This document shows positions 11,965 to 19,770 of a DNA stretch of 64,000 nucleotides, in pieces. This DNA comes from Phycisphaerae bacterium (GTDB lineage Bacteria; Planctomycetota; Phycisphaerae; SM23-33), in contig DRGC01000055.1 in NCBI GenBank assembly GCA_011050235.1, forward strand, positions 62,001 through 126,000. Reading direction: 5' to 3'. Position 1 is the stretch's first letter. Every line of letters starts with the position of its first letter. The position numbers were made by a program, and so were the translations under genes. The notes below the pieces were generated by a model. That model ran no database searches and had not been told where the DNA came from. It worked only from the letters and a program-made list of their open reading frames with translations.

Positions 11965-12120
11965 GATTGCCTGCCCTTTCAATACATTGTCCCGCACGAG
12001 GATCCATCGCCTGCGCGTCTCTCGTAAACGGCTCGGCTTGGCCGGGCTTCTTCCGTCAGAGCTTTGGACGCCCAAGGGCTCCAAGGGTTCACGAGAACTT
12101 CATTTCTCTGTGGCGCGCCG

Positions 12121-13395
12121 CTACAAGCGTTCCGGCGCGTCGGATTCTACGCGGAATAGTTCCATCTGGCCTGGCGCCAACGGCACGCACGTTTGCAGTG
12201 AGGGGTTTTCGGGCCAGTCGTCGTCGAAGTAGACGCGGGGCTTGTACTCGTCTCCGTCCCAGCCGATCTGGAACAGGTCCGGCTTGCCGTGCCAGGTGAT
12301 CAGGGCGTTGCCCATCTTGTCGCCGGAGTTGTTGACGATCGAGACGTAGTCGCGCCCGTCGGCGTCCTTGAACTCCGAGATGATAATGGGGTATTCGTTC
12401 TCGAAGACCTTGGCGGCCTTGACCAGTTCGCTGTCGAGCGTGCTGGGCCAGCCGCCATACGCGCCGCCAATGAAGCTCGCCTCTTTGAACGTCAGCTTGG
12501 CCAGTGTGCTGCCGTGCATGTGGTTAAACTCCCGCTGCTGGTCGGAGAGGATCCAATACATGTCGGTCTTGCGGCCGTGGATGTTGTAGGGGGCGTTGCG
12601 GTAGTTCTGGAATCGGGACATGTAGAGCAAGTACCACGCGATGCCCTTGAACCCGCAGGCGGCTGCGGCGTTGATCTGCCAGCGAATGTCGTCGCAGTTC
12701 AGGTCCGGGATGTACCCATGCGGCACGCAGCACAGTGTCACCCACGTCCAGATATCGCCAAGCTGGCGGGCCTTGTCGGCGTACATCTTGAGCGTCAGGA
12801 AGAAGCTGTCTACGTGATTCTCGCCGTCCTTGGCAGCCAGGGCGTAGTTGTTGTGGAAGAACACGCGCGATTTGCCAACCTCGGCCAGCTCTTCCAGATA
12901 CCGCCCGTAGCTGCGAATCTGCATCCACTCCAGCGCCCCGGCCGAATAGCCGCCGATGCTCAGAAACGGCGTCAGGTGCGGGGCCATCTCCCGCTGAATG
13001 CCGTGTGTGCCGAAAACGGCTGTGATCTTCTGCTGGGCGGGCTCATCGCCGACCTCGAACCCCATCAGGGCCGGGTGGTCGCCGTAGTCTTTCAGTGCCG
13101 CCTCGATGCCGCGGCGAAGGTCATCCTCGCTGCCGCCGCCCAGCATCACGTGCCCGGCGCAGCGGCTGTCGTTGACGAAGCACATCATCCCCAACTCCGC
13201 GCAACGGTCGAGCATCGCCCGCACCAGCGGCACGGCCTCCCCGCCGGACTGCGCAGGCGTCTTGCCCACCGTAATCCCCAACTCATGCCAGTCGTCAACG
13301 GTCTGAACCGTTCCGCCATTATCACCCAAGCCGACGTAGTTATGCAGCGTGACCGGGTACCGGCCGTCGCGTGCGCATTGATCGAGTGTGTCCAT
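12121..13395 (-). CDS. Glycosidase-like TIM-barrel protein, tandem paralog 1
   Basis: 424 residues; the last transcribed and most divergent of four tandem paralogs (also 13506-14792, 14907-16187, 16693-17973). Shared marks are an opening 'G(V/R)xPVTxHNY', the motif 'GFEVGDEPA' (about 140), 'REMAPHLTPFLSxGGY', 'DSELVKAAKV', and 'IISEFKDADGRDYV' before a C-terminal beta-rich domain ending in 'APGQMELFRVESDAPERL'. The Glu of GDEP and the Glu of ISEFKD are spaced like the acid/base and nucleophile of clan GH-A barrels, but this assignment is inference. No signal peptide. The start at 13395 follows AGAAGG; the frame continues upstream into islet C, which is repeat DNA and not coding. Confidence 0.6.
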   Translation of the reverse strand: MDTLDQCARDGRYPVTLHNYVGLGDNGGTVQTVDDWHELGITVGKTPAQSGGEAVPLVRAMLDRCAELGMMCFVNDSRCAGHVMLGGGSEDDLRRGIEAALKDYGDHPALMGFEVGDEPAQQKITAVFGTHGIQREMAPHLTPFLSIGGYSAGALEWMQIRSYGRYLEELAEVGKSRVFFHNNYALAAKDGENHVDSFFLTLKMYADKARQLGDIWTWVTLCCVPHGYIPDLNCDDIRWQINAAAACGFKGIAWYLLYMSRFQNYRNAPYNIHGRKTDMYWILSDQQREFNHMHGSTLAKLTFKEASFIGGAYGGWPSTLDSELVKAAKVFENEYPIIISEFKDADGRDYVSIVNNSGDKMGNALITWHGKPDLFQIGWDGDEYKPRVYFDDDWPENPSLQTCVPLAPGQMELFRVESDAPERL

Positions 13396-13415
13396 CACAT
13401 TCGCCTTCTTTCTTT

Positions 13416-13497
13416 CACCACAAAGAACACAAAGATCACGAAGGCAAAGAAGAAACTTTGCTGTTGGCTCTTTGTGTCCTTTGTGACCTTTGTGGTG
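13416..13497 (-). repeat. Periodic stem-loop islet C (9-nt units)
   Basis: 82-bp inverted repeat with CACCACAAAG at 13416-13425 and its complement CTTTGTGGTG at 13488-13497. Each arm consists of degenerate 9-nt units: CACAAAGAA, CACAAAGAT, CACGAAGGC in the left arm, and TTTGTGTCC, TTTGTGACC, TTTGTGGTG in the right. The islet starts 8 nt after the TAG stop of paralog 2 (13506-13508) and ends about 20 nt before the start of paralog 1. It makes long spurious reading frames with His-Lys-rich or Phe-Val-rich repeats. Confidence 0.85.
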
Positions 13498-13505
13498 AGC
13501 TGTTT

Positions 13506-14792
13506 CTACAACCTCTCCGCCGCGTCGGGTTCGATGCGGTAGAGCTCCATCTGGCCCGGCGCCATCCATGGACCGGTTTCCATCGTCGCGTTCTTGGGAT
13601 TGTTGTGGTCGAAGTACTTGCGGTGAGGGGTCTCTTCGCCTTGCCAGCCGATCTTGTAGACCTTTGGCTGGCCGTGCCAACTGATGACGACCTGACCGTA
13701 GCCTTCGCGGGAGTTATTCAGCACGCCCACGTACGGCCGGCCATCGGCGTCTTCGAACTCCGAGACCAGCAGCGGGAATTTGTCGCACTCCTGCACGCGG
13801 ACGCCCTTGACGTATTCGCTGTCGATGGTGTTGGGGAAGCCGCCCCATCGCGGCGCGCCGATGTGGTAGGCCTGCTGCCAGTCGAGCTTCAGCAGCGTCG
13901 GGCCGAACGTGTTCTGCAGCCGTCGCAGGTGGTAGCTGAGCCACTCGAACGTGTGCGTCCGCTCGCCGAACTCGTTGATCGGCGGCCAGCGGTAGTTCTC
14001 TTCCTGCCGATGGGTGTAGACGTTGAACCACGCCAGGCCCTTCTGGCCGAGGCAGGCGGAGATGTTGATCTGCCAGCCCAACTCGTCGGCCGTCGGGCAG
14101 GAGTAGGTGTAATGGCCCGTGCACAGCAGCGTCGTCCACAGCGGCAGGTGGTTGTGACGCAGCATGGCGTCATTGTACATCTTGTAGGTGAGGAAGTGCA
14201 TGTCGATCGCTTCCGGCTCGTTGGCGCAGATCGCGTAGGACCCGTGGAACAGCAGCAGCGGATCGGACCCCTCGACGAGCCGATCGATGTAGCGCCGGTA
14301 ACTCCGCAGGCCCATCCACGCGGCGCCGGCCGGCGAATAGCCCGCACAACTCATAAACGGCGTCAGGTGCGGGGCCATCTCGCGCTGGATGGCGTAGGTG
14401 CGGTAGGCCATCTGGACCTTGTCGTGGGCGGGTTCGTCGCCCGCGTCGTAGCCGAACAGCGCAGGATGATCCCCAAAATCCTTCAGCGACCGCTCCAGCC
14501 CGCGGCGGTACGCATCCTCATCCCCGTTGAGCTCGAACATCCGCCCCATCGAGCACGTCCGGTCGGTCACAAAGCACATGATGCCGGCCTCGGCGCACGC
14601 GTCGAGGATCGCCAGCACATCTTCCTTCTTATCCTTCTCGGGATCGTAGCCCGGCATCCGGCCAACGGTGATACCCAGGTCCACCCAGTCCTTCACCGCC
14701 CAAGGCCCACCAGCCGGCGAACCCCACGGACTGTAGTTATGGAACGTAACCGGGAAAACGCCCCGGTCCATGATAGCTTGAAGAGTATTCAT
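13506..14792 (-). CDS. Glycosidase-like TIM-barrel protein, tandem paralog 2
   Basis: 428 residues. It is very close to paralog 3, and the first 30 residues are nearly identical (MNTLQAIMDRGVFPVTFHNY). It keeps the GDEPA motif, REMAPHLTPF, the late 'VSEFEDADGRPYV' (Asp/Glu-rich active-site candidate) and the C-terminal 'APGQMELYRIEPDAAERL'. The mid-part contains 'ENYRWPPINEFGERTHTFEWLSY', shared with paralog 3. Unusually, the ATG at 14792 lies only 8 bases from islet D and has no recognisable ribosome binding site, because that position is occupied by repeat DNA. Translation may depend on coupling to paralog 3 or on the RNA structure. Substrate unknown. Confidence 0.6.
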   Translation of the reverse strand: MNTLQAIMDRGVFPVTFHNYSPWGSPAGGPWAVKDWVDLGITVGRMPGYDPEKDKKEDVLAILDACAEAGIMCFVTDRTCSMGRMFELNGDEDAYRRGLERSLKDFGDHPALFGYDAGDEPAHDKVQMAYRTYAIQREMAPHLTPFMSCAGYSPAGAAWMGLRSYRRYIDRLVEGSDPLLLFHGSYAICANEPEAIDMHFLTYKMYNDAMLRHNHLPLWTTLLCTGHYTYSCPTADELGWQINISACLGQKGLAWFNVYTHRQEENYRWPPINEFGERTHTFEWLSYHLRRLQNTFGPTLLKLDWQQAYHIGAPRWGGFPNTIDSEYVKGVRVQECDKFPLLVSEFEDADGRPYVGVLNNSREGYGQVVISWHGQPKVYKIGWQGEETPHRKYFDHNNPKNATMETGPWMAPGQMELYRIEPDAAERL

Positions 14793-14799
14793 GTGTAGT

Positions 14800-14906
14800 T
14801 ACTTCGTTGACTCGTTAGTTCGTTAACTCGTCGACTCGTCAATCCAGCCCTCGTCTCGCGGCAAAACCACGAATTGACGAGTTAACGGATTAACGAATCC
14901 ACGAAT
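14800..14906 (-). repeat. Periodic stem-loop islet D (8-nt units)
   Basis: Inverted repeat with degenerate 8-nt units. The left arm (about 14802-14843) reads TTCGTTGA, CTCGTTAG, TTCGTTAA, CTCGTCGA, CTCGTCAA. The right arm (about 14867-14906) is the complement, built on CACGAATT, GACGAGTT, AACGGATT, AACGAATC. The loop is about 23 nt and GC-rich. It begins immediately after the TAG stop of paralog 3 (14907-14909) and ends 8 nt before the start of paralog 2. Confidence 0.85.
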
Positions 14907-16187
14907 CTATAGTCGTTTCGGCGCGTCGGATTCCACGCGGTAGAGCGTCACCTGTCCGGGACCCATCCACGGGCCGGTTTGCTTGGTGGGGTTCTCGGGC
15001 CATTTGTCGTCGAAGTAGACGCGGTATTCGCTTTCCGTGCCTTCCCAGCCGATCTTGTAGACCGTGGGCTTTCCGTGCCAGGTGATGACGCACTGGCCGT
15101 AGCCCGTCTTGGTGTTGGCCAGCAGAGCGACGTAGTCGTTGCCTTCGGCGTCTTTGAACTCCGAGATCATCAGCGGGAACTTCATCGTGCGGGCTTCGAC
15201 GGCCTTGACCAGTTCGCTGTCGATGGTGTTGGGGTACCCGCCCAGGCGCTCGTTGTCGATGTGGTAGGCCTTCTGGAAGTCCAGCTTCAGCAGCGTCGGG
15301 CCGTGGGTCTTCTGGAGGCGTCGCAGTTCGTAGCTGAGATATTCGAACGTGTGCGTCCGCTCGCCGAACTCGTTGATCGGCGCCCAGCGGTAGTTCTCCT
15401 CCGGCCGGTGGGTGTACACGTTGAACCACGCCAGGCCCTTGTGACCCAGGGCGGTCGAGATGCCGATCTGCCAGGCGATGTCCTCCTGGTCGGGGCATCG
15501 GAGCGTGTAATGGCCCGTGCAGCACAGCGTCAGCCAGACCGGCAGGCGGTGACGAATCATCGCGTCGGTGAACATCTTGTGGGTGAGGAAGTGCTTCTCG
15601 ATCGCGTCGGGCTGTTCGTGCAGCATGTAGTAGCTGCCGTGGAACAGCAGCAGCGGGTCGGATGTTTCGACCAACTCGTCGATGTATCGCTGGTAGCTCC
15701 GCAGGCCCATCCACGATGCGCCTTCGGGCGTGTAGCCGGCCGTGCTCATAAACGGCGTCAGGTGCGGGGCCATCTCGCGATGGATCGCATAGGCGCGGTA
15801 GGTCCGCGTGATCGCGTCCTGGGCCGGTTCGTCGGCGACGTCGTAGCCGAAGTTGGCCGGGTGATCGCCGAAATCCTTTAAGGACGCCTCGTACCCGCGA
15901 CGGTACACGTCTTCATCGCAGTTGGCCTTGGCCATCGCACTGACCGAGCAGCGGGCATCGTTGACAAACAGCATGATGCCGGCCTCCGCGCACGCATCCA
16001 GCAGCGCCAGCATGTCTTCCTTCTTATGGCGCTCGGGATCGTAGCCGGGCGATCGGCCGATGGTGATGCCCAGGTCCACCCAGTCCTTGACCGCCCAAGG
16101 CCCACCGGCCGGCGAACCCCACGAGCTGTAATTGTGGAACGTAACGGGGAAAACGCCCCGATCCATGATGGCTTGAAGAGTATTCAT
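14907..16187 (-). CDS. Glycosidase-like TIM-barrel protein, tandem paralog 3
   Basis: 426 residues, closest to paralog 2. It shows the family marks: HNYSSWGSPAGG near the N-terminus, 'GYDVADEPAQD' (here Ala replaces the Gly of GDEP), 'REMAPHLTPFMSTAGY', 'LCCTGHYTLRCPDQEDIAWQ' with a Cys pair shared by the array, 'ISEFKDAEGNDYV' and the C-terminal 'GPGQVTLYRVESDAPKRL'. The start at 16187 has a clear GAGGT six bases upstream, lying just before the end of the neighbouring IVS-like element. Probably cytosolic. It likely acts on an oligosaccharide or glycoside with its paralogs, but no substrate can be read from the sequence. Confidence 0.6.
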   Translation of the reverse strand: MNTLQAIMDRGVFPVTFHNYSSWGSPAGGPWAVKDWVDLGITIGRSPGYDPERHKKEDMLALLDACAEAGIMLFVNDARCSVSAMAKANCDEDVYRRGYEASLKDFGDHPANFGYDVADEPAQDAITRTYRAYAIHREMAPHLTPFMSTAGYTPEGASWMGLRSYQRYIDELVETSDPLLLFHGSYYMLHEQPDAIEKHFLTHKMFTDAMIRHRLPVWLTLCCTGHYTLRCPDQEDIAWQIGISTALGHKGLAWFNVYTHRPEENYRWAPINEFGERTHTFEYLSYELRRLQKTHGPTLLKLDFQKAYHIDNERLGGYPNTIDSELVKAVEARTMKFPLMISEFKDAEGNDYVALLANTKTGYGQCVITWHGKPTVYKIGWEGTESEYRVYFDDKWPENPTKQTGPWMGPGQVTLYRVESDAPKRL

Positions 16188-16198
16188 GCTTACCTCAG

Positions 16199-16691
16199 CA
16201 GGCTTGGGGCCTGGGGCTTGGGGCTTGAGAAGCGGCGACATTAGCCGTTCTCTCGAAAGCTGGACACCAGGCCGGACAAGACCCGAGCGCAGTGATCGTA
16301 TTGTGCAAGCAGATCCTTGGTCGCAGCTGGCTCCAAGTACGCCAGCTTACCCGCTAACTCAATGAAGTAGCCGGCTTCCCGCAAGGACGCAAAAGCGATT
16401 CCAAGGAACTTCACGTAGTCTTTCTCGCTGCTCCGTGCAGAGCCTTCCACGATGTTTGCCGCCACGGATACCACCGCTCGCCGAAGCTGGCTCGTCAGGC
16501 CGAACTGCTCGGTTCGAGGAAACGCCTTGGTGGCCTTGTAGACAGCCAAGACGAATGCGTCAGCCAACTGGAACGCCGTCAGTTTCCGATGGTCTCGCAT
16601 ATCCATTCCTCAGGCCTGTGCAGGGGCTTGGGGCTTGGGGGGCGGCAACGCCATCCTCTTTGCAAGCCTCAAGCCCCACGCCCCAAGCCTG
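16199..16691 (-). mobile_element. IVS-like element with 30-bp terminal inverted repeats and S23-type gene
   Basis: 493-bp unit. The left end (16199-16228) and the complement of the right end (16662-16691) match at 27 of 30 positions by my count. Both are built from degenerate heptamers such as GGCTTGG, GGCCTGG, GGCTTGA. An extra pair of GGGGCTT units at about 16623-16637 makes the right side a compact stem-loop by itself (16622-16691), similar in size to islets A, C and D. Between the ends is a four-helix-bundle gene. The unit sits between the TAG stop of paralog 4 (16693-16695) and the ribosome binding site of paralog 3. Build and protein family match intervening sequences of bacterial 23S rRNA genes (terminal inverted repeats plus an S23-family gene), but the host transcript here is an mRNA. 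Confidence 0.7.
16241..16600 (-). CDS. Four-helix-bundle protein (S23/23S-IVS, Avd-like family)
   Basis: 119-residue small basic helical protein. It has the family signature in its first half: 'RKLTAFQLADAFVLAVYKAT' then 'FPRTEQFGLTSQLRRAVVSV' and 'AANIVEGSARSSEKDYVKFL', followed by 'ASLREAGYFIELA'. These four helices are typical of the S23 family encoded inside 23S rRNA intervening sequences. They are related to Avd, the accessory protein of diversity-generating retroelements. Members form pentameric barrels that bind nucleic acid. GAGGA lies 7 bases before the second Met (16600) but directly abuts the first ATG (16606), so I prefer the second. The gene is flanked on both sides by its own heptamer repeats. 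No reverse transcriptase or rRNA is nearby. Confidence 0.88.
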   Translation of the reverse strand: MRDHRKLTAFQLADAFVLAVYKATKAFPRTEQFGLTSQLRRAVVSVAANIVEGSARSSEKDYVKFLGIAFASLREAGYFIELAGKLAYLEPAATKDLLAQYDHCARVLSGLVSSFRENG

Positions 16692-16692
16692 T

Positions 16693-17973
16693 CTATAGCC
16701 GCTGCGGCGCATCGGATTCGACGCGGTATAGTTCCATTTGTCCCGGCGCGAGCCACGGGCCGGTTTCCAGGTAGGGGTTCTCGGGCCAGTCGTCGTCGAA
16801 GAATGCGCGGACTTCGGACTGCTTGCCCTCCCAGCCGACGTGGAAGACCTTCGGCTTGCCGTGCCAGCGAAGGATGGCCTGGCCCGAGCCGGTCAGCGAC
16901 CGGTTAACGATGGCGACGTAGTCGCGGCCATCGGCGTCTTTGAACTCGGAGATCAGGACCTCGAACTTGTCGTCCCGCACCCGCACGCCTTTGACCAGTT
17001 CGCTGTCGATGGTCGTCGGATAGCCGCCCGTCGGGCCGCCGCCGAGGCAGAAGAAGGCCTTCTGGAACGTCAACTTCATCAGCGTCGGCCCGTGCCATTT
17101 CTGGAACGTCCGCAGCTGGCGGCTCAGCCAACTGAACGTCTCGGTCCGCTCCCAGTGCTCGTCGATGGGGTTGAGGCGGTAGTTCATATGCGGCTCGGTG
17201 ACATAGACCAGGAACCACGCGAAGCCTTTCGCCCCCAGGGCGGCCGACGTGTTGATCTGCCAGCGCAGGTCGTCCTCGGACGGACACCGCATGTTCATGT
17301 GGCCCGAGCAGCACAGCGTGACCCAATAGGGGATGTCGCCGTTTCGCTTGCAGGAGTCGGTGAACATCTTGTGGCTGCGGAAGTAGGAGTCCTGGGCGTA
17401 GTCGCCTTCGTGCAGCGCGTAGTAGTTGTTCTGGAACAGCATGCGGGGTTGGGCGATCTGGCAGTACTCGTCCAGATATCGGCCGTAGCTGCGAATGCCC
17501 ATCCACTCGACCGCCCCGGGGTCATAGCCGCCCATCGACAGGAACGACGTCAGGTGCGGGGCCATCTCGCGATGAAGCGCCGCCGTGCGAAACGCCGGCG
17601 TGATGTGCTGGCGGGCGGGCTCGTCGCCGACGTCGAATCCGAACGCGGCCGGGTGGCTGCCGAAATCCTTCAGCGCCTCCTCGAAGCTGCGGCGGAAGCT
17701 GTCTTCATCGGCATCGCGCAGCGACCCCGTGCCGGCCCGGCGGTCGGGCACGAAGCACTTGATGCCGGCCTCGGCGCACGCGTCGAGAATCGCCAGCATA
17801 TCGGCCTTGTCGACCTTGCCCGAGTCGTACCCAGGCGTACGGCCGACCGTCAGGCCCAAGTCCGTCCAAGTCTTAACCGCCTCCGGCACAGCCGCGGGCG
17901 AACCCCACGAGCTGTAGTTGTGGAAGGTAATCGGGAAGACACCATCAGCGATACATTTCTCCAATGTGTTCAT
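16693..17973 (-). CDS. Glycosidase-like TIM-barrel protein, tandem paralog 4
   Basis: 426 residues, first transcribed of the four-gene tandem family. It shows 'HNYSSWGSPAAVPEAVKTW', 'GFDVGDEPARQ', 'REMAPHLTSFLSMGGYDPGA', 'LCCSGHMNMRCPSEDDLRWQ', 'DSELVKGVRVRDDKF', 'ISEFKDADGRDYV' and an 'APGQMELYRVESDAPQRL' terminus. Its ATG at 17973 overlaps the stop of the upstream lipoprotein gene as ATGA, with an AGAGGC ribosome binding site, so the two are coupled. The TAG stop is followed within 2 nt by the IVS-like element. Position and spacing of the two conserved Glu residues fit a retaining glycosidase barrel, unproven. Confidence 0.6.
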   Translation of the reverse strand: MNTLEKCIADGVFPITFHNYSSWGSPAAVPEAVKTWTDLGLTVGRTPGYDSGKVDKADMLAILDACAEAGIKCFVPDRRAGTGSLRDADEDSFRRSFEEALKDFGSHPAAFGFDVGDEPARQHITPAFRTAALHREMAPHLTSFLSMGGYDPGAVEWMGIRSYGRYLDEYCQIAQPRMLFQNNYYALHEGDYAQDSYFRSHKMFTDSCKRNGDIPYWVTLCCSGHMNMRCPSEDDLRWQINTSAALGAKGFAWFLVYVTEPHMNYRLNPIDEHWERTETFSWLSRQLRTFQKWHGPTLMKLTFQKAFFCLGGGPTGGYPTTIDSELVKGVRVRDDKFEVLISEFKDADGRDYVAIVNRSLTGSGQAILRWHGKPKVFHVGWEGKQSEVRAFFDDDWPENPYLETGPWLAPGQMELYRVESDAPQRL

Positions 17974-18674
17974 TCTGCCTCTTGCGTCGCCGGGGCGGCG
18001 CCCTTTCTCCTCAACCATTCGATGCGGACCGGACGGTAATATCCCGCCTGTTCGCGTCTGAGTTTCACGACCGTGATCTCAGGTCCTCGTAGACTGACGA
18101 TCACGGGGTTTTCCGGATTGCGGTCCGCCACGCCGCCGGCGGGCGGCGCCAGGGCAGCCAAGTAACTGCGCTTTGCTAGGTCTCCCAGCGGCTGGGCGGA
18201 AGAGAGGTACCAGCCTTGGGCCATCCCAGCAACACGGAAAGGATCGTAGAAACCGAACACAAGAACGTCCTCTTCCGAAAGGTCTCCCCCACCCTCATCA
18301 CTGGCGCCGGTCATCTGTGAGAGCCACCGCCTGACTAGGTCCCCATCTGTGAACTCAATGGGTTCAATGACATTCTCCCAATCGCTTCGGTCGCCCAGAT
18401 CGACAAGATGAGGGAACTCGGCAAGACGTCGCTGGGCGTCGGCAATGAGCAAGGCCTTATGCGGAACGAGCTTGTCCCGGGCGATTCGCTTCGCAATCGA
18501 AACAATCTCCTGCTCGCCGAGATCGTGCATATGCGGAACGACCTCCTCATGCACCGCTTGGCTATACTCCCGCAGCACCTTCCGGACCTGTTCGCGACTA
18601 TCGTCCTTCGTGTCGCGACACCCAACGAGCGCCACAGCCGCGAGTACCGCAAGCAAGATCGCCAATCGTTTCAT
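17970..18674 (-). CDS. Putative lipoprotein of unknown function
   Basis: 234 residues. Clear lipoprotein signal: MKRLAILLAVLAAVALVGC, with the lipidated Cys at 19. The mature part begins charged and helical ('REQVRKVLREYSQAVHEEVV'), followed by a mixed domain with no motif I recognise. The C-terminus is basic (about 205-227). A ribosome binding site GGAAGGTG precedes the ATG at 18674. It is translationally coupled to glycosidase-like paralog 4 downstream and is preceded by islet F and a PHP-domain gene. It may be an outer-surface partner of the locus; that is a guess from position only. Confidence 0.6.
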   Translation of the reverse strand: MKRLAILLAVLAAVALVGCRDTKDDSREQVRKVLREYSQAVHEEVVPHMHDLGEQEIVSIAKRIARDKLVPHKALLIADAQRRLAEFPHLVDLGDRSDWENVIEPIEFTDGDLVRRWLSQMTGASDEGGGDLSEEDVLVFGFYDPFRVAGMAQGWYLSSAQPLGDLAKRSYLAALAPPAGGVADRNPENPVIVSLRGPEITVVKLRREQAGYYRPVRIEWLRRKGAAPATQEAE

Positions 18675-18710
18675 GATCCACCTTCCCTATTGATAGTCTC
18701 TTTTGCTACG

Positions 18711-18738
18711 CCTCAAACCGCAAACCTCAGACCTAATC
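18711..18738 (-). repeat. Periodic islet F (7-nt units, single arm)
   Basis: Four degenerate heptamers in plus-strand reading: CCTCAAA, CCGCAAA, CCTCAGA, CCTAATC. They directly abut the TAG stop (18739-18741) of the PHP-domain gene. No second complementary arm is visible. Same period and placement as islet B. Confidence 0.65.
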
Positions 18739-19770
18739 CTACCAGTTCACATAGATTGGCGCCGAGAAGGCGCGGAGGTCGTCGTTGGCGGTGCATTCCA
18801 GACGGAAGTAGGTGCGTTTGCCGGCAGCTTTGCGGGTGAGGGCGTCTTCAACCAACTGGGCGCCCTTGGCGTCGACTTCCTTGATGACTTTGCCGTCGGA
18901 GATCAGGCGGACGCTGCTTAGGCCGAAGGAATCAGCGGCGCGGAAGCGGAGCTTCAGGGCCGAGCCCCTCTTGGGTTTGAGCTTCGAGCCCATCGGTTTG
19001 CCGTTGCACCGCAGTTCCAGCAGCGGCGCTTCGGAGGCGAAGCATCGGCCTTCCTGCAGGCCCTTGATGATCGAAGCCGGGCTCTTGGTCGCGGCGAGCA
19101 CGCCCGTCCAACTGTTGCCGATCTCGACCAGGAAGTGTGCGTCGCTGACGCCGACAGGCGTCACCGAGCGGCCTGCACACAGCAGCGCATCCATCATCCG
19201 CACACCCCAGATGCCCGTGCGGAAGTACGACCGCATGGCATTGAAGCCGTTGAGCACCTCCATCGCCAGATCGTCGATCGAGCAGAGGCCGTTGAACATG
19301 CGTTTGAACCACACCTTGTTGACCGGGCTGAAGCCCACCGGATGAGCCGCCCAGACGAACGGCGCCAGCGTACGCCCTTGGGCGAAACCGTCGGCGGCGC
19401 TTTGGTTTGGCGAGTATTTGTGGGCGCGCTTCGGCTGGAGCAGGCCCATGTCGAACCCGCCGGCGTGGGATTCCTCGCCCCAGGTGGCGTTAGGGAGCTT
19501 GGCGGTGTCGCGTTTCTGGGTGATCCGGCCGTGATCGGTGGCGAACAAAAGATCGACACCCACCAGCTTGGCCCGCGCGGCGTTCTCGGCGACGGAGCTT
19601 TGCCCGTCGGAGTACTTCGAGTGGCTGTGCAGATCGGCTGTAGCGAGTTTCATCTTGAACAACTTCCGGCTGGCGGCGATGCGCAAGCCCTTGTCGCGCT
19701 TGTCCCTGCCGGTTAACTCCTCCAGGTAGTTGCGGCGCTGCTGCTGAAGCTGCTTGAGTGACTTGGCCAT
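18739..19770 (-). CDS. PHP-domain metal-dependent phosphoesterase
   Basis: 343 residues. The PHP metal-binding signature is plain: 'ADLHSHSKYSDG' (H48 and H50), 'LLFATDHG' (H80), a later 'AAHPVGF' and the C-terminal 'GVSDAHF'. These proteins hydrolyse phosphoester bonds using two or three metal ions; substrates range from DNA ends to nucleotides and sugar phosphates. After the PHP core (to about residue 245) there is a beta-sandwich-like extension with 'GSALKLRFRAADS' resembling a carbohydrate- or surface-associated module, which suggests a non-housekeeping role. The start at 19770 has AGGAGA 6 bases upstream. No signal peptide is seen. Confidence 0.8.
   Translation of the reverse strand: MAKSLKQLQQQRRNYLEELTGRDKRDKGLRIAASRKLFKMKLATADLHSHSKYSDGQSSVAENAARAKLVGVDLLFATDHGRITQKRDTAKLPNATWGEESHAGGFDMGLLQPKRAHKYSPNQSAADGFAQGRTLAPFVWAAHPVGFSPVNKVWFKRMFNGLCSIDDLAMEVLNGFNAMRSYFRTGIWGVRMMDALLCAGRSVTPVGVSDAHFLVEIGNSWTGVLAATKSPASIIKGLQEGRCFASEAPLLELRCNGKPMGSKLKPKRGSALKLRFRAADSFGLSSVRLISDGKVIKEVDAKGAQLVEDALTRKAAGKRTYFRLECTANDDLRAFSAPIYVNW

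Follow-up and report, generated by a model that had tools for sequence, protein, structure and literature searches.

Inverted heptamer arms around S23 genes in protein-coding operons: a candidate mobile intervening-sequence element

The S23 gene family has been known mainly from split ribosomal RNAs. REP and REPIN sequences are short palindromic islets that are mobilised in trans by RAYT (Y1) transposases, and the Rickettsia palindromic elements are in-frame insertions within protein-coding genes and carry no S23 gene. In the rRNA intervening sequence (IVS) of Coxiella, tandem GACAGAT heptamers precede S23p, the stem measures 28 bp, RNase III cuts at the first heptamer repeat, and S23 is decaying (PMC4990558). 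The same paper describes S23 as a pentamer, citing Lin 2006. Avd, the partner of diversity-generating reverse transcriptases, is homologous to S23 (PMC10053308). Moreover, heptanucleotide repeats have been described in several lineages (TAACTGA in Beggiatoaceae, GGGAATC in Xanthomonas, GGGGA(C/T)T or STRR in Nostoc); they are intergenic, lie near gene ends or behind stop codons and sometimes form inverted pairs, and their origin was not given (PMC4679880, PMC4692102). The texts of these two papers mention neither S23 or IVP nor a four-helix protein, and give no mechanism of spread, although MacGregor speculated that a repeat-binding protein might itself be a mobile element (PMC4679880). Our literature search found no paper joining S23 elements with heptanucleotide repeats; its coverage of subscription journals was thin, and an earlier description is not excluded.

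The S23 elements described here resemble the 23S rRNA IVSs of Coxiella and Leptospira in the protein family, in the layout of an ORF in a 0.4-0.5 kb unit with complementary ends, and in their sporadic distribution. They differ in that their host is an operon or a coding sequence (0 of about 100 loci in rRNA), the S23 ORF is constrained and not decaying, and arm-only derivatives are scattered. Since the Coxiella rRNA IVS also carries heptamers (PMC4990558), the rRNA and mRNA-type elements are probably one family, and since its S23 is decaying, the mRNA-type elements may be the living form. With the heptanucleotide repeats the S23 arms share the period of 7, the intergenic position near gene ends and the occasional inverted pairing; one S23 gene (L088) even has TAACTGA-type arms. 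The likeness to REP and REPIN lies in islets that would be dispersed in trans and in a lineage-specific motif tied to one protein family; however, S23 is a four-helix pentamer without a known catalytic site and not a Y1 enzyme, and its motif is a tandem word of 7-9 nt. Avd has a homologous fold (PMC10053308), and the bAvd and Avd models matched the S23 analysed here weakly, but the S23 element, unlike the diversity-generating retroelements, encodes no reverse transcriptase, template or variable repeat.

In our judgement it is likely, though not established, that the unit is a mobile S23 (IVP) intervening-sequence element, mainly of protein-coding transcription units, whose pentameric S23 recognises the heptamers in its own arms. 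What was observed, and what this reading rests on, are the arms and their orientation, the link between word and protein, and the insertions; binding, cutting by RNase III and the mobilising enzyme are inferred.

The element in the window and its surroundings

The window, that is the whole 64-kb stretch of DNA that was analysed, contains the following features in and around the element at 16199-16691.

16693-18018, minus strand: cistron upstream of the element; ORF with a product 58% identical to that of 14907-16187, function not identified
16655-16691, minus strand: upstream arm (in gene sense, CAGGCTTGGGGCGTGGGGCTTGAGGCTTG...) of GGGCTTG-type heptamers; inverted pair I1; period-7 array at 16663-16689, score 12.5
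16622-16691, minus strand: compact arm-to-arm hairpin 5' of the S23 gene; pair I3 (18 nt, 89%) between the array at 16623-16640 (score 11) and 16667-16684
16241-16606, minus strand: S23/IVP four-helix-bundle gene; 121 aa, 119 aa from the second ATG; PF05635, TIGR02436, 2gsc
16199-16235, minus strand: downstream arm, an inverted copy of the upstream arm; inverted pair I1; period-7 array at 16201-16227, score 15
14907-16187, minus strand: cistron downstream of the element; ORF, true start probably the ATG at 16187 (MNTLQ...)
14804-14907, minus strand: S23-less hairpin islet of period 8 with ACGAGTTA-type arms; arrays at 14804-14840 and 14869-14907, in the stop-to-ATG gap between cistrons
13419-13494, minus strand: S23-less hairpin islet of period 9 with CACAAAGxx arms; arrays at 13419-13443 and 13470-13494, in the next intercistronic junction

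The element fills the gap from the stop codon of one cistron to the ATG of the next. A first-pass annotation, made from the sequence alone, had described terminal inverted repeats with degenerate heptamers around an S23-family gene of 119 residues, and all of this was borne out. The arms at 16199-16235 and 16655-16691 are inverted, 37 nt long, 86% complementary and 419 nt apart, and the heptamers were recovered as period-7 arrays. At the same threshold, 9 of 10 Markov-resampled copies of the window had no period-7 array, and the remaining one had two. The 12-mer core of the arms occurred six times, always within the element (0.7 expected; 0 of 100 shuffles). The gene product matched PF05635 (23S_rRNA_IVP) over positions 1-106 of 106 with 1.4e-30 and 106.1 bits (cut-off 33.8), and TIGR02436 with 5e-30 and 103.9 bits (cut-off 24). 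Its closest solved structure was 2gsc, X. campestris XCC0516 (6e-20), an entry that has five chains, as has 2rld.

The transcript of the element folded more stably than its shuffles (z -4.1). The sub-hairpin that the annotation had placed ahead of the gene was found again as pair I3; it folded at -38.9 kcal/mol (z -2.4) and has the same architecture as an S23-less islet. The Rfam search of window positions 12000-19000 found no rRNA. The element thus meets the IVS criterion of an S23 ORF bounded by complementary, stem-forming ends and is an IVS-type element that fails the criterion of location in rRNA.

The product of 14907-16187 has paralogues at C55:75509-76792 (71% identity) and C55:78696-79973 (58%), and the cistrons of the window operon are paralogues with identities of 58-71%. 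Neither of the two cistrons that flank the element had a match in the Pfam and NCBIfam profile search; their position had been annotated correctly, but their description as glycosidase-like found no support. Both other junctions of this paralogous cistron run are occupied by arm-only hairpins (periods 8 and 9), which fold strongly, with z -6.2 for 14804-14907 and z -6.8 for 13419-13494. The proposal that the element is the autonomous member of a local islet family therefore holds for the presence of islets in neighbouring junctions; the window S23 was not shown to be their source, because their motifs differ from its arms. A further period-7 array (CATTGGACATTGGTC...) lies at 1432-1470 of the window, with no nearby gene among the listed S23 matches.

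Arms and arm words at S23 loci

The window's own genome (G000) has five S23 genes, and the words read by eye in their flanks were GGGCTTG, GGAGCCG/GGAACCC, GGATTGC, GCTGAAT and GGAACTT. Paired arms were confirmed by script for the first, second and fourth of these genes, and weakly for the fifth. S23 genes were present in 35 of 40 relatives, and 80 more S23 loci, from about 20 phyla, came from a scan in which each species was represented by one genome. For 109 usable loci, near flanks (within 160 bp) were compared with far flanks (500-900 bp away) at an array score of at least 10. Period-7 arrays were found in 50.5% of near flanks, compared to 2.9% of far flanks. The corresponding values were 9.2 and 0.5% for period 8, and 4.1 and 0.5% for period 9, while periods 3-6 and 10-13 showed no enrichment near S23 in these 109 loci. 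The arms of a locus paired with each other at an inverted-repeat score of at least 28 in 67 of the 109 loci, against 1.2% of pairs swapped between loci and 0 of 193 far controls; the median pairing score was 32 for own arms and 15 for swapped ones.

Most of 24 further loci and the cyanobacterial plasmid loci agreed with this survey. Exceptions to the inverted arms include L246, which has no arms, and L306, in which the arrays are direct and not inverted. Armed S23 loci came from 17 named phyla plus Cyanobacteriota, and an Rfam scan of about 100 loci placed none within rRNA. Periodic inverted arms at other S23 genes, which the annotation had named as a check, are present as a rule. The median element was 496 nt long and the median arm 32 nt. 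Arm lengths were broad (interquartile range 25-39 nt), and an arm of five heptamers was not claimed as proof of a pentamer.

The word in the arms follows the protein. The more alike two S23 proteins were, the more similar were their arms (Mantel r 0.22; the highest value in 2000 permutations was 0.11), with the reservation that the rows of this test are not independent. The similarity was found mainly in the same orientation relative to the S23 gene: a motif (12 of 14 positions, same orientation) was shared by 58% of pairs at protein identities of at least 70%, and by 1-2% of pairs below 40%. In addition, the period (7 versus 8 or 9) clustered on the S23 tree, with 12 changes compared to 17.1 after shuffling (0 of 300).

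When 101 period-7 words were aligned in gene sense, the consensus was NNNNAGN, with A in 88% and G in 74% at adjacent positions. This logo contained 2.76 bits, compared to at most 2.34 bits with random strands and at most 2.52 bits with shuffled positions. The AG was strand-specific, 58 loci being AG-only and 6 CT-only. Since the signal is one-stranded, it suggests that S23 recognises RNA or single-stranded DNA; this target is inferred, without binding data. Richness in AG 5' of a gene could also partly reflect translation signals.

Insertion sites, arm-only islets and rival explanations

Filled and empty sites were observed in several pairs of relatives. G038 has a 514-nt S23 element where the same-genus genome G029 has 61 nt, between flanks that are 87-88% identical. 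On plasmid pNe_5 of Nostoc edaphicum an S23 element lies between nrdB and nrdA, a junction that is plain in Calothrix NIES-4105. In Calothrix brevissima an element lies exactly between the stop codon (TAA) of an integrase gene and the next ATG, compared to only a few bases at this junction in four other plasmids. The junction 3' of a TraM-like gene is filled in Nostoc C052 and N. edaphicum, empty in two C057 plasmids, and occupied by GGGAACA-type arms without S23 in ATCC 53789 pNsp_c. An arm-only islet likewise measures 108 nt in G038 and 18 nt in its sister G029. The arms bound the insert at these junctions, and no target duplication was seen by eye at those compared. Apart from S23 the unit has no conserved ORF, and it encodes no transposase. 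The criterion of an insertion element is satisfied at four S23 sites and at one islet site, all outside the window; that of a transposon (transposase plus target duplication) was not fulfilled, and among trans-acting enzymes only reverse transcriptase and Y1 were checked. No S23 was found in phage records.

The idea of a mobile IVS-like element outside rRNA, raised by the annotation, is thus supported: S23 genes elsewhere have periodic inverted arms as a rule, and empty sites exist, so that neither of the two outcomes named by the annotation as refuting it came about. A move from rRNA to mRNA, as opposed to the reverse, was not shown. The annotation had also named the comparison of filled and empty sites. 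Empty sites were found at other loci; for the window site, the 40 relatives yielded no orthologous operon, and the search gave paralogues in G000 and distant homologues in G005 only.

Six S23 elements (L049, L050, L078, L088, L099 and L141) lie within a reading frame that is open throughout, with S23 on the same strand in another frame, and as in-frame insertions they resemble the Rickettsia palindromic elements. According to Pfam, a DNA polymerase III alpha gene contains one of them, close to where the finger domain begins; two lie in N6/N4 methylase genes, and a fourth lies just ahead of an N6-methylase domain. L049 is the in-gene case with an empty sister site, and its net gain of 453 nt is a multiple of three. 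The constant frame offset of the in-gene S23 ORFs (6 of 6) was not accepted as evidence, since, given the codon composition, that frame is more likely than any other to stay open. The host proteins of these six loci contain further in-frame heptamer islets, with peptides such as QLSVVSGQ and LTTDNRKL.

The S23 gene is under strong constraint, with dN/dS of 0.04-0.15 in five divergent pairs (no value was usable for pairs that were saturated or very similar, and these were left out). Moreover, 30 of 135 S23 loci have the same two neighbours as some other locus, which shows that a part of the sites is old or preferred. Both findings would also be expected if S23 were a host-domesticated regulator that binds heptamers in mRNAs, with selected placement and only rare, incidental mobility. 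The concentration of islets near gene ends in G008, and the S23 genes with mostly one-sided arms in conjugation operons of cyanobacterial plasmids, point the same way. We regard this explanation as unlikely. The empty sites between close relatives fit a parasite better, as does the presence inside unrelated genes, and at one junction common to five genera the words differ (L037, L043, L045, L046 and L193), which is again better explained by a parasite.

Arm words also occur without S23. The GGGACTA word had 166 matches in G008 and 36 in G022, which both have an S23 gene carrying it, and none in 35 of 40 genomes. For GGGCTTG there were 27 matches in G000, where the reversed control gave 2. G031 had 12; its S23 is the nearest to the window S23 and carries the same word. 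Arrays in G008 are often part of larger composite repeats, and since many of them ride in such repeats, the 166 matches were not accepted as independent insertions. In stretches of G008 that were chosen for holding GGGACTA arrays, non-coding DNA, 13% of the total, contained 76% of the arrays; of 68 intergenic arrays, 32 lay within 60 nt of a gene 3' end, compared to 16% of random intergenic points. The arrays meet the criterion of the heptanucleotide-repeat class (tandem 7-nt units, intergenic, dispersed in the genome), placement having been measured in G008. Composite intergenic repeats that join arrays of periods 7, 8 and about 10 were seen in L167 (5245-5935) and at similar places in G008.

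Cognate islets are not universal. In unbiased 400-kb samples, the own words of G000 were matched for three of its five S23 genes, and those of L004 and L005 only at their own genes; 400 kb of the G035 genome contained none of its own S23 words. G048 (Calditrichia) had 208 matches to TCAGTTR arrays (a TAACTGA-type triple heptamer), and for 32 of 53 sampled arrays a partner on the other strand lay no more than 700 nt away; the 20 stretches sampled (L286-L305) contained no matching S23 gene. G021 and G013 have GGGACTA arrays and no matching S23 among those seen. Dispersal of TAACTGA in the genome of L088 was not counted, all listed matches being in one contig stretch.

Such arrays could have arisen by polymerase slippage, with S23 genes merely inserting in or near existing arrays. 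According to a published hypothesis, a length of 7 nt fits the polymerase contact and favours slippage (PMC4679880, PMC4692102), and array lengths vary between strains of Coxiella. This is nevertheless quite improbable for the S23 arms: their orientation is inverted from one side of the gene to the other, whereas a gene inserted into a direct array would have direct repeats on both sides, the empty sites have no arrays, and the word follows S23 lineage and orientation.

A resident reverse transcriptase or Y1 (RAYT/IS200-like) transposase might move the element in trans, as the homology of S23 with Avd (PMC10053308), the weak bAvd/Avd model matches and the REP-like analogy could suggest. We give this very little weight. 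No PF00078 match was found in the incomplete genomes of G008, which has the heaviest array load, G022 and G038, and no PF01797 match in that of G038, despite the element and the islet gained there relative to G029. Within the limits of these two families and of incomplete genomes, neither enzyme is required in G038. An ordinary repeat or assembly artefact without biological meaning can be dismissed, for although most of the genomes are metagenome assemblies, complete plasmids from cultured cyanobacteria show this structure, empty sites included, and the far-flank and swapped controls disagree with it.

Proposed mechanism and significance

For the mobile S23 element with its own heptamer arms, we propose the following course. 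S23, a homopentameric ring in the solved homologue, would recognise the word repeated in its own arms, and this on one strand only, at about one word per subunit, the median arm measuring 32 nt. In RNA the arms would form a stem, as in rRNA IVSs, and this stem might serve as a substrate for host RNase III or other processing, by which the insert would be removed or the cistrons parted; an insertion just behind a stop codon could be tolerated because of such processing. S23 would further mark or synapse the arms, and host or unknown enzymes would copy them to new places in trans, so that arm-only islets would be non-autonomous derivatives, much as REPINs are of RAYTs. Against the S23-element reading it counts that no binding, processing or transposition was observed and that cognate islets are missing from some genomes.

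A broader formulation is more tentative, and we would put it at somewhat less than an even chance: that these units form a transposase-free element class in which each subunit of the pentameric ring reads one copy of a lineage-specific NNNNAGN word in single-stranded arms, that this pairing of protein and word both generates and spreads most bacterial heptanucleotide repeats, and that rRNA IVSs are a special case. S23 is a concrete candidate for MacGregor's repeat-binding mobile protein. Two old puzzles, the function of S23/IVP and the origin of the heptanucleotide repeats of cyanobacteria, Xanthomonas, Beggiatoaceae and others, become one testable question. If S23 does read heptamers and these can change, nature would already provide a modular ring for binding RNA or DNA.

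Some single loci deserve mention. In L003/L004, L188/L188b, L179 and L183, S23 elements of two different word families occupy two neighbouring junctions of one operon; other families of the class also have these junctions filled. In L271 (G038:C2:123050-124250), a 155-nt sequence at about 657-812 adjoins an arm-only islet and has about 40 copies in G029. The S23 genes of L248-L252, in conjugation operons of cyanobacterial plasmids, have their heptamers mainly on the upstream side and are perhaps domesticated. In L306 and L308, from cyanobacteria of different orders, S23 with heptamer arrays lies between cas6 and cas4 of a CRISPR operon.
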